Origin: Gammaproteobacteria bacterium
GTDB lineage: Bacteria; Pseudomonadota; Gammaproteobacteria; Burkholderiales; Burkholderiaceae_B
NCBI GenBank assembly: GCA_018815245.1
Contig: JAHIXK010000002.1
Span: 310,001-374,000 of the forward strand
Length of the DNA stretch: 64,000 bases
Reading direction: 5' to 3'
Shown piece by piece: positions 49,242 through 55,963 of the stretch (position 1 is the stretch's first letter; each line of letters begins with the position of its first letter). The notes below the pieces were generated by a model that saw only the letters and a program-made list of their open reading frames with translations, was not told the DNA's origin and searched no databases. Position numbers and translations under genes: made by a program.

Positions 49242-53966
<4,725 letters not shown>

Positions 53967-54037
53967 GGCAAAGCCCCTGATTTTCAGTATGTTGCTCACT
54001 TTACTGCAGTGCGGCAAGATTCTCAAGGAAAATAAAA

Positions 54038-54100
54038 GGGGTCTGACCCTGTTTAATACATCACCCCAAATTCAGGGGATAATAATTAGGGACACACAAA
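54038..54100. repeat. RAYT-associated-type palindromic sequences
   Basis: Between gltB and the RAYT-like gene lie GGGGTCTGACCCT (54038-54050, a near-perfect GGGTC-T-GACCC palindrome), a CCCC/GGGG pair (54064-54078) and ATAATTAGGGACAC. Read on the minus strand, GTGTCCCTAATTATT...GGGTCAGACCCC resembles the sequence found next to many proteobacterial REP-associated transposase genes. This is from memory of such elements, not a search. Confidence 0.45.
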
Positions 54101-54112
54101 ACAGCAATGCAC

Positions 54113-54817
54113 TTAGCTTGTGCCCTGATTTTTTTTCGTTGGTCGTCCGCGGGGCCTTGGTCGAACCGGGCGGTTCGCAAGGTCTTGAATTTGCGCGCAA
54201 AAAGAATCGTCACTCCAAAGCCAACCTTTCTCCAAACAACCTGCAAGCTCGGCATCGTCCAGCGCGCTTAGGCCTTGCTCACTGAACTGCCGGTAGCGGC
54301 TTTGCCGCTCAAAAGGTGTATTGCCCAGTTGCCAGTACACAGGCAAATCGCTCAACCAGGCTTCGTTCACCACGCCGGCGTGGGCCGCAAAACTACTCCA
54401 GGGGTATGTGGCCAAATCGGGGGCTCCCGCAGCACGCGTGGCCAGTTGCTCAACGAACAGGCAAGCTTTCAGGCTGCGCGAACCGGGTTGCACCACAGTG
54501 GATTTGAAACGCGGCTCCCAAAGCGCGCTGGAATTGACGGTTTGTACTTGCCGCACAGCCGGCGAGAAATGGCGATTCAGGTTTTGTACAAAGCGACCCA
54601 CCCTGTGAGCCTGGGAAGCGGTGATCATCAACAACGCGCCCGTGGGAACCAGGCAGTAGGCATGCATGGCAATCGCCTCCTCAGCTGCGCTCAACGGCAA
54701 CTGGGCGTGAAAAAGCAAAAAAGCCTCGCGGGTTTTGAATACATCCTGCCCTGCAATGCCCCGCAGCTCAATCACCATGGGGCATTCGGGAATAAACAAA
54801 CGGGCTTGGCGAGCCAT
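54113..54817 (-). CDS. RAYT/IS200-like transposase homologue, catalytic motifs lost
   Basis: Protein of 234 residues beginning MARQARLFIPECP with the frame of REP-associated tyrosine transposases: HAYCLV (52-57), LWEPRFKS and YPWSSF are all at family positions. The active site is gone. Where RAYTs have NHVHLL (the HUH metal site) it has PTGALLM (58-64), and at the position of the catalytic Tyr in CxRYIELN it has ACLFVEQL (Phe121). The frame is otherwise intact, which favours a retained, domesticated protein over a decaying one. It sits between dgt and gltB with a Pro/Arg-rich tail. Confidence 0.8.
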   Translation of the reverse strand: MARQARLFIPECPMVIELRGIAGQDVFKTREAFLLFHAQLPLSAAEEAIAMHAYCLVPTGALLMITASQAHRVGRFVQNLNRHFSPAVRQVQTVNSSALWEPRFKSTVVQPGSRSLKACLFVEQLATRAAGAPDLATYPWSSFAAHAGVVNEAWLSDLPVYWQLGNTPFERQSRYRQFSEQGLSALDDAELAGCLEKGWLWSDDSFCAQIQDLANRPVRPRPRGRPTKKNQGTS

Positions 54818-54826
54818 TGGGATGCC

Positions 54827-55963
54827 TTAAGACTGCATGCCGGGAACAGTCAGGCGCTGGTGCTCTTTCATGGCGTAGCGGTCGGTCATCCCCGCAATAT
54901 AATCGGCTATGGCGCGAGGAACATCCGTTTGCGCACGCTGAAAAAACTGTGGCGGCAACAGCCGCGGGTCGTCCATGAAAATATGAAACAGCTCCTGCAC
55001 CACGCGGCGTGCCTTCAAGGTAGCCCGCAACACCTGGTAGTGCTGATACAGGGCTTTGCGCAAAAACACTTTCAGTTCGTGATTCAACTCGGCCATTTCG
55101 CTGCTAAATCCAATCAGCTTGTCGGCCAACTGTACGTCAGCCAGACTGGCCGGCTTCATCAGATGAATTCGTCGCTCGGATTCGTGCAACAAGTCCTGTA
55201 CCAGCGCATTGATAATGCCGCGCACGGTTTCGTGGATCAGCCTGCGCCCGTCAATGCTGGGGTGCCGCGCCTTCACACGGTCCAAATGTATTTTGAACAA
55301 ACGCACCTCGGCAGCCTGCTCCAGCGTAATCAGGCCCGAACGCAAACCATCGTCAATGTCGTGGTTGTTGTAGGCAATTTCATCGGCCAGGTTGGTTACC
55401 TGCGCTTCAAGCACCGGGCGTCGATTGCTTAAAAAACGGTCAGCGACCTCACCCAGCTTTTCAGCATTGGGCCTGGAACAGTGCTTCAAAATACTTTCAC
55501 GCGTTTCAAAACACAAATTCAAACCGTTGAATGCTGCGTACTTTTCTTCCAGTTCATCCACCACACGCAGGCTTTGCAAGTTGTGCTCAAACCCACCGTA
55601 CGGCGCCATGCATTCATTCAGGGCGTCTTGCCCAGCATGGCCAAACGGCGTGTGCCCCAAATCATGGGCCAGGGCAACGGCTTCGGTCAGCTCTTCATTC
55701 AAACCCAGATTGCGGGAAATGCTGCGCGCAATTTGCGCCACTTCAAGGCTGTGGGTCAGGCGGGTGCGGTACAAATCACCTTCGGTGTTTACAAACACCT
55801 GGGTTTTGTATTCAAGGCGGCGAAAAGCAGCGCTGTGGATAATGCGGTCACGGTCGCGCTCAAACTCGGTTCGGCCTTCCGGGCTTTTCTCGGGGTGCAG
55901 CCTGCCACGGGTGTTCGTGGAACTGACTGCGTAAGGGGCCAAGCCAAGTTCGAAGTTGCGCAC
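54827..55963 (-). CDS. dgt: Deoxyguanosinetriphosphate triphosphohydrolase-like protein
   Basis: HD-domain dNTPase of 378 residues that splits dGTP (or other dNTPs) into nucleoside and triphosphate. Metal ligands are His71 ([15 protein letters not shown]) and His100-Asp101 ([17 protein letters not shown]) with a later Asp in [17 protein letters not shown]. This length belongs to the short, dgt-like subfamily. The GTG start at 55963 lies 3 bases after the aroB stop, in the conserved aroK-aroB-dgt order. Confidence 0.95.

Follow-up and report, generated by a model that had tools for sequence, protein, structure and literature searches.

The locus raises a simple question: why is a RAYT-like open reading frame that lacks the residues needed for catalysis kept intact between dgt and gltB? 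The window, by which we mean the whole 64,000-nucleotide stretch analysed, comes from a genome that its close named relatives mark as Limnobacter and carries on its minus strand, co-oriented and in this order, a dgt-like HD phosphohydrolase gene (54827..55963), the RAYT/TIRYT-derived ORF (54113..54817; 234 aa, ATG start), upstream of which dgt ends at a distance of 9 nt, and gltB, encoding the glutamate synthase large subunit (49242..53966; likely start, ATG 53966). The mechanically listed gltB frame begins at a TTG at 54026, inside the predicted promoter at the -35 box, and the conserved start is the ATG at 53966. The original prediction, that this is a RAYT homologue in a single open frame that has lost both its HUH and its tyrosine motifs, was borne out by alignment. 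LVPTGALLMI of the window protein aligns with LMSNHVHLLA of intact relatives, which puts G60 and L62 at the HUH histidines within the former motif PTGALLM (residues 58-64; 54626..54646, minus strand), and ACLFVEQLA aligns with CSCYIDQNP, so that F121 (codon 54455..54457, minus strand) replaces the catalytic tyrosine. The window protein therefore has neither of the features expected of an active RAYT or TIRYT, the HUH motif and the catalytic Tyr (Y---NP). A search of the window genome found no second RAYT relative.

Taken alone, the window protein reaches only E 0.022 against NCBIfam REP_Tyr_transpos, under the family cut-off; it does not match Pfam Y1_Tnp, and a PDB sequence search with it was empty at E 1. 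Its RAYT homology is indicated by its relatives, which match RAYT models (at E 0.1, REP_Tyr_transpos is matched by 11 of the 16 members of alignment A1, best 1e-23, and Y1_Tnp by 8 of the 16), and by its predicted structure (pLDDT 90.5), for which the top PDB fold match is 4ER8, in which a RAYT is seen with a REP hairpin (query TM-score 0.49, Foldseek E 9.6e-7). By this structure model the protein has the Y1 HUH fold. The model also places helices at residues 168-181, 185-197 and 204-211, which may be compared with the helix-turn-helix-like C-terminal extension with which RAYT subclass 2.1 is described in Quentin 2018 (PMC6006769) and Di Nocera 2013 (PMC3733652). In the C-terminal part of the protein lie the most constrained block of the protein, PVYWQLGNTPFERQSRYRQFSEQG (residues 159-182; 54272..54343, minus strand), which includes the GNTPF signature of the gltB-linked clade, and an AT-hook-like tail, RPRPRGRPTKK (residues 219-229; 54131..54163, minus strand), in which GR(P) is conserved. 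Pfam AT_hook is matched weakly, by 2 of the 16 family members in A1 (best E 0.048), and no Pfam HTH model was matched at E 0.1 in the 16. A search of plasmids with the window protein returned 17 records, all distant and below 60% identity.

Among the 15 other Limnobacter genomes, 13 carry an intact orthologue without internal stops; the two that do not (G001 and G010) are 85% and 65% complete, and their gltB promoters also lack the sites described below. The original prediction had held that orthologues absent or frameshifted in close relatives would indicate simple decay, and this is not what we find, since 13 of 15 congeners are intact and the misses are incomplete genomes. The gene follows dgt in all 13 orthologue loci, and gltB comes next in 12 of the 13 in the stretch that was read. 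G002 (L011, L038), the thirteenth, has some 2.6 kb between its RAYT gene and gltB, with the operator match at gltB and not beside the RAYT gene. The dN/dS comparison that the prediction had proposed for same-locus orthologues gives a median of 0.082 (range 0.031-0.261; Nei-Gojobori, 64 of 91 Limnobacter pairs usable and 27 without usable dS), indicating purifying selection, with 0.035 for dgt (computed on a set that did not include dgt of L012), values that are descriptive only because sequence pairs share branches. Across 12 close rows the regional values are 0.016 for the YWQLGNTPF block, 0.021 for the WSSF block and 0.071 for the helix that formerly bore the tyrosine, and the strand that formerly bore the HUH motif (segment 50-67) has 0.160, the highest except for the tail at 0.186. 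The RAYT of the window thus combines two features, in that catalysis has been lost yet the protein is under purifying selection.

Of 250 genomes sampled evenly across the order, 129 have a RAYT-profile match (E 1e-10) and 223 have gltB (E 1e-200); in at least 41 a RAYT ORF precedes a co-oriented gltB at a distance of less than 1 kb, a count based on the RAYT matches listed together with the 62 listed gltB matches judged able to share a contig. Outside the order, inspection by eye found no RAYT adjoining gltB in any of 71 class-level genomes with a profile match, 67 of which have gltB; these 71 are what remains of 74 matching genomes, in a class-level set of 276, after three belonging to the order are set aside. 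In family f49, which groups with Curvibacter rows in the tree, exactly one match (E 1e-60) is found in 58 of 60 genomes, and in family f7 at least one match at that threshold in 59 of 60, with two or three in eight; the three genomes of these families that lack the gene are G583, G595 and G131. Held-out rows were taken from these two families and consist of the remaining 57 f49 genomes in which a match had been found plus a selection of 39 from f7 (26 best-scoring new rows and 13 lower-scoring); gltB lies within the locus in 93 of these 96, and in L274 and L285 the RAYT gene does not adjoin it.

Two kinds of RAYT can be told apart in these genomes. The signature GNTPF/Y is present in 67 of 83 compared rows, all 67 of them gltB-linked or displaced; of 20 RAYTs situated away from gltB, 16 lack the signature and the other four, which carry it, are displaced orthologues. 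The generic RAYT rows all fall on one side of a branch of the tree with support of 100/99. The catalytic H, H and Y are retained in 21 of the 67 signature rows, against 16 of 16 generic rows. Among the held-out rows, 91 of 96 have the signature and five do not, and 64 of 96 retain H, H and Y, although the f7 rows were selected, so that the catalytic fraction in f7 is not a population estimate. Mapped on the tree, the dead state requires at least seven changes, six of them forced by well-supported branches, and seven if counted as losses without regain. Since so many members keep all three residues, whatever role the protein has need not depend on the loss of catalysis. With purifying selection, near-universal presence in f49 and f7 and at least seven catalytic losses, the suggestion in the original prediction that the gene was domesticated for a nucleic-acid-binding role is well supported.

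What the protein might bind is suggested by the sequence in front of gltB. Two TGTCCC/GACCC sites about 49 nt apart lie in the interval from the RAYT gene to gltB, shortly ahead of the predicted -35: a putative distal operator half-site, TGTCCCTAATTATTA (54080..54094, minus strand), identified by comparing Limnobacter promoters, and a putative proximal half-site, GGGTCAGACCCC (54038..54049, minus strand), which is the only exact copy in the window genome. The predicted gltB promoter follows on the same strand, with a -35 hexamer TTGAGA (54021..54026), a 17-nt spacer and a -10 hexamer TAAAGT (53998..54003). In the Limnobacter promoters TGTCCC-AATT and GGGTCAGACCCC are conserved and the stretch between them is variable; the flanks of the sites are A/T rich, and the core resembles the terminal-repeat core GGGGWSAS of mobile TIRYT relatives. 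When genomes are scanned with a sequence model of the Limnobacter element, each of the 14 that have the RAYT gene shows a single strong copy, located at gltB, and no second strong one (next best E 0.026), and G001, G010 and G016, all without the gene, show no match; since the model was built from the sequences of 13 of these 14 genomes, what is informative here is the independent match in G002 together with the lack of a second strong copy. A dispersed REP family, a trait of REP-type RAYTs that TIRYTs need not have, was considered and rejected, there being, with one mismatch allowed, 13 matches against 10 in a control orientation, and one exact copy. The near-match C12 lies in an apparently protein-coding stretch, which by eye we take to be flagellar fliI.

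A strict site pattern, set after the adjacent promoters had been viewed and before the wider pattern was made, occurs in 32 of 41 promoters with an adjacent RAYT and in 4 of 40 others, counts which, like all those for sites given here, come from related and hence not independent rows. The four (G232, G278, G089 and G029) are genomes with a RAYT of the gltB-linked clade elsewhere, and a fifth such genome, G028, was missed. The wider pattern was tuned on the discovery sequences, displaced ones included, with CGTC forms added after the promoters of family f1 had been seen; it finds any site in 66 of 68 discovery promoters where RAYT adjoins gltB and paired sites in 58 of 68, and, where the RAYT lies away from gltB, any site in 10 of 10 genomes and paired sites in 8 of 10. 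It occurs in one of 39 control gltB promoters (G027), 17 of these controls having a RAYT-profile match somewhere in the genome, of which two were read, both without the signature. The pattern was then frozen for the held-out and further-control counts, the held-out families f49 and f7 having had members in the discovery set. Any site was found in 80 of 81 held-out promoters and paired sites in 71 of 81, where a Markov expectation gives 4.2 and 0.04; paired sites were found in none of 20 further controls (10 with a RAYT-profile match in the genome, 6 of those read) and single sites in three. Among the held-out rows, L278 duplicates a discovery row exactly and one other shows 92% identity to one; leaving out every row with 90% or more identity to some discovery row gives 78 of 79 and 69 of 79, and setting the limit at 70% or more gives 65 of 66 and 56 of 66. 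Fifteen of the 96 held-out loci do not enter the site count, as no gltB start motif could be located within 900 nt; 12 of the 15 contain gltB, and among the other three L272 is at a contig end. The single held-out promoter without a match, L282, has the gene adjoining gltB, and in G268 (L103) and G149 (L107), where the RAYT adjoins gltB and is catalytically dead, the promoter sites have diverged beyond the pattern.

The geometry of the pair is regular. The two sites are 48-50 nt apart in 67 of 71 held-out pairs; a minority of promoters, mostly with inverted sites, have a spacing of 37-39 nt. A set of 77 rows was used for promoter phasing (46 of the direct type, 21 of the inverted type and 10 without a promoter call), and in 37 of the 46 direct-type rows the distance from the core to the start of the -35 box is 12 or 13 nt, mostly with 17-nt spacers, some of the other distances listed in this set (3 and 6) being earlier chance TTGs. 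In family f1, a dead clade (L018-L030, L194-L210), many sites read CGTCCC...GGGACGCACC and not TGTCCC...GGGTCAGACC, a change that suggests that protein and site changed together.

Rearranged genomes indicate which gene the sites belong to. In G232 the RAYT follows an apparent dgt end, and gltB, 731 kb away, keeps both sites; the RAYT is also displaced in G017, G021, G025, G026, G028, G278, G032, G089 and G029, and gltB has at least one site by the widened pattern. That the sites stay at gltB when the RAYT is displaced argues that they serve gltB and not the transposase gene. G027 (L213), a 97%-complete assembly of 120 contigs, keeps the sites with no RAYT detected and gives a weaker element-model match at gltB. 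On its contig C111, gltB stands in rearranged surroundings, and the frames upstream resemble toxin-antitoxin genes by eye.

The other end of the presumed element behaves differently. Generic RAYT genes have an inverted GGGGTCAGAC-type repeat upstream in 9 of 16 cases, which fits the GGGGWSAS consensus that Di Nocera 2013 (PMC3733652) gives for TIRYT repeats. In the discovery set this upstream repeat accompanies 10 of 21 catalytically intact genes against 5 of 46 dead ones, and in the held-out set 40 of 64 against 9 of 32, with a reversed-pattern control at 6 of 179. The gltB sites, by comparison, do not track catalysis: at least one site accompanies 54 of 55 intact genes and all 26 dead ones, and paired sites accompany 50 and 21. 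At the window RAYT itself, inspection by eye of the 40 nt preceding the gene showed no terminal repeat, and the core occurs only on the gltB side (54038-54049).

In proposing how this arrangement arose, we need to explain the retention of the protein, the loss of catalysis and the persistence of the sites at gltB. We think it likely, from sequence comparison, that the ORF product is a transposase-derived DNA-binding protein that serves as a dedicated regulator of the gltBD promoter. It also seems fairly probable that the TnpA-like (Y1) clade, near-universal in f49 and f7, is as a whole a dedicated gltBD transcription factor with the fossil end of its ancestral mobile element as operator, and that catalysis was shed repeatedly as protein and operator co-diverged. 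An ancestor of many members of the order would have acquired, in the dgt-gltB interval, a mobile TIRYT-type element with a Y1 HUH transposase and GGGGWSAS terminal repeats. The gltB-side end of this element would have turned into an operator composed of two half-sites spaced by about 49 bp, the nearer of which usually ends 12-13 nt before the -35 box. The protein would have retained its fold, the C-terminal YW-LGNTPFxR block and the GRP tail for recognition of the site, while DNA cutting became dispensable and was then lost many times. Sites some 4.6 helical turns apart and ending just before the -35 would suit contact with polymerase or DNA bending, and placement upstream of the -35 suggests activation over repression, on a guess only slightly better than even. 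The insertion history, the binding of protein to site and the effect on gltBD transcription are all matters that we infer. The original prediction left open whether DNA or RNA was bound; because paired sites are conserved at the gltB promoter, specific DNA binding there is the likelier reading, and the RNA half of the proposal found no support here.

Other explanations have to be weighed against regulation by the RAYT-derived protein. The paired sites could be the operator of another host regulator of gltBD, with the RAYT gene a linked passenger, and the occurrence of sites in G027 with no detectable RAYT gene is what this would lead us to expect. However, the pair is absent from 38 of 39 and 20 of 20 control promoters, the sites persist at gltB when the RAYT gene is elsewhere, their core matches the terminal-repeat core of the protein's own mobile relatives, and the window genome yielded no second RAYT; we regard a separate host regulator as unlikely, if deserving of some weight. 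We give little credence to an RNA element, that is, a terminator or hairpin at the 3' end of a dgt-RAYT transcript that is bound by the protein or ends transcription before gltB. GGGTCAGACCCC and its flanking A/T tracts are indeed palindromic and a T-rich stretch follows, but no terminator-like site was found in 53900-54300 and no Rfam match in 53800-54300, and the element, which is situated before the predicted -35, remains beside gltB and does not accompany the RAYT where the two are separated.

The retention of H, H and Y in 64 of 96 held-out members, and of the upstream repeat in 40 of those 64, might be taken to mean that members keep a transposase or single-stranded DNA-processing job, for which the gltB site is a safe insertion site or one linked to replication. 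Such a job is hard to reconcile with a window protein devoid of catalytic residues, with at least seven catalytic losses in which the gene was retained, and with the usual single copy per genome, and we consider it very improbable. Simple decay, in which the transposase of a former element is becoming a pseudogene beside its leftover ends, would account for the lost residues and for an upstream terminal repeat that is mostly gone from dead lineages; we find it scarcely credible for a gene whose frame is intact in 13 of 15 congeners at a dN/dS of 0.08, which is present in 58 of 60 f49 and 59 of 60 f7 genomes, and whose gltB-side sites do not fade.

The proposed regulator has analogues among known systems. 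With TIRYTs and subclass 2.1 it shares the Y1 HUH fold and, probably by descent, a lineage, and the GGGGWSAS repeat core matches the gltB sites (GGGGTCAG, GGGGACAG). TIRYT repeats are assigned mainly to subclass 2.1 in Quentin 2018 (PMC6006769), whose tree kept only sequences with both motifs, and the TIRYTs listed by Di Nocera (PMC3733652) retain HUH and Tyr. The window protein, unlike these, lacks both motifs, is single copy, has no upstream repeat and is associated with sites tied to one promoter. The E. coli TnpAREP/RAYT (4ER8), its best PDB fold match, is called a domesticated transposase with housekeeping-gene-like behaviour in PMC8266576; that protein processes many-copy single-stranded REPs, whereas the window protein lacks the catalytic residues and has no dispersed repeat. 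The TldR proteins are TnpB-like, nuclease-dead, RNA-guided repressors (PMC13418256, citing Wiegand 2024), and the resemblance, by analogy and in outline, is to a nuclease-dead protein from IS200/IS605-type elements, inactivated repeatedly and in fixed association with a host gene. TldRs, however, are TnpB-derived and guided by RNA; the window protein has a Y1, TnpA-like fold and not TnpB homology, and would recognise the old element end directly.

Our searches of the open-licence PMC literature turned up no description of a gltB-linked RAYT. If the proposal is true, central nitrogen assimilation in much of a large bacterial order is controlled by a nearly core regulator whose gene is of a kind that usually carries a transposase annotation, a transposon end has been turned into a promoter operator, and the system is a TnpA-side counterpart of the TnpB-derived TldR regulators. 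As lineages with and without catalysis exist side by side, the question of why RAYTs persist without spreading becomes directly testable.

Two loci bear names from outside the order. The RAYT proteins of L047, a bin labelled Mycobacteriaceae, and of G627 (L278), which belongs to family f7 in the order of the window, are identical, and the L047 bin or contig is therefore probably mislabelled. A record named for the gammaproteobacterium Panacagrimonas (L049) has the order aroK-aroB-dgt-RAYT-gltB, with catalytic residues intact and a GltB that is 76% identical, and transfer of this locus is possible.
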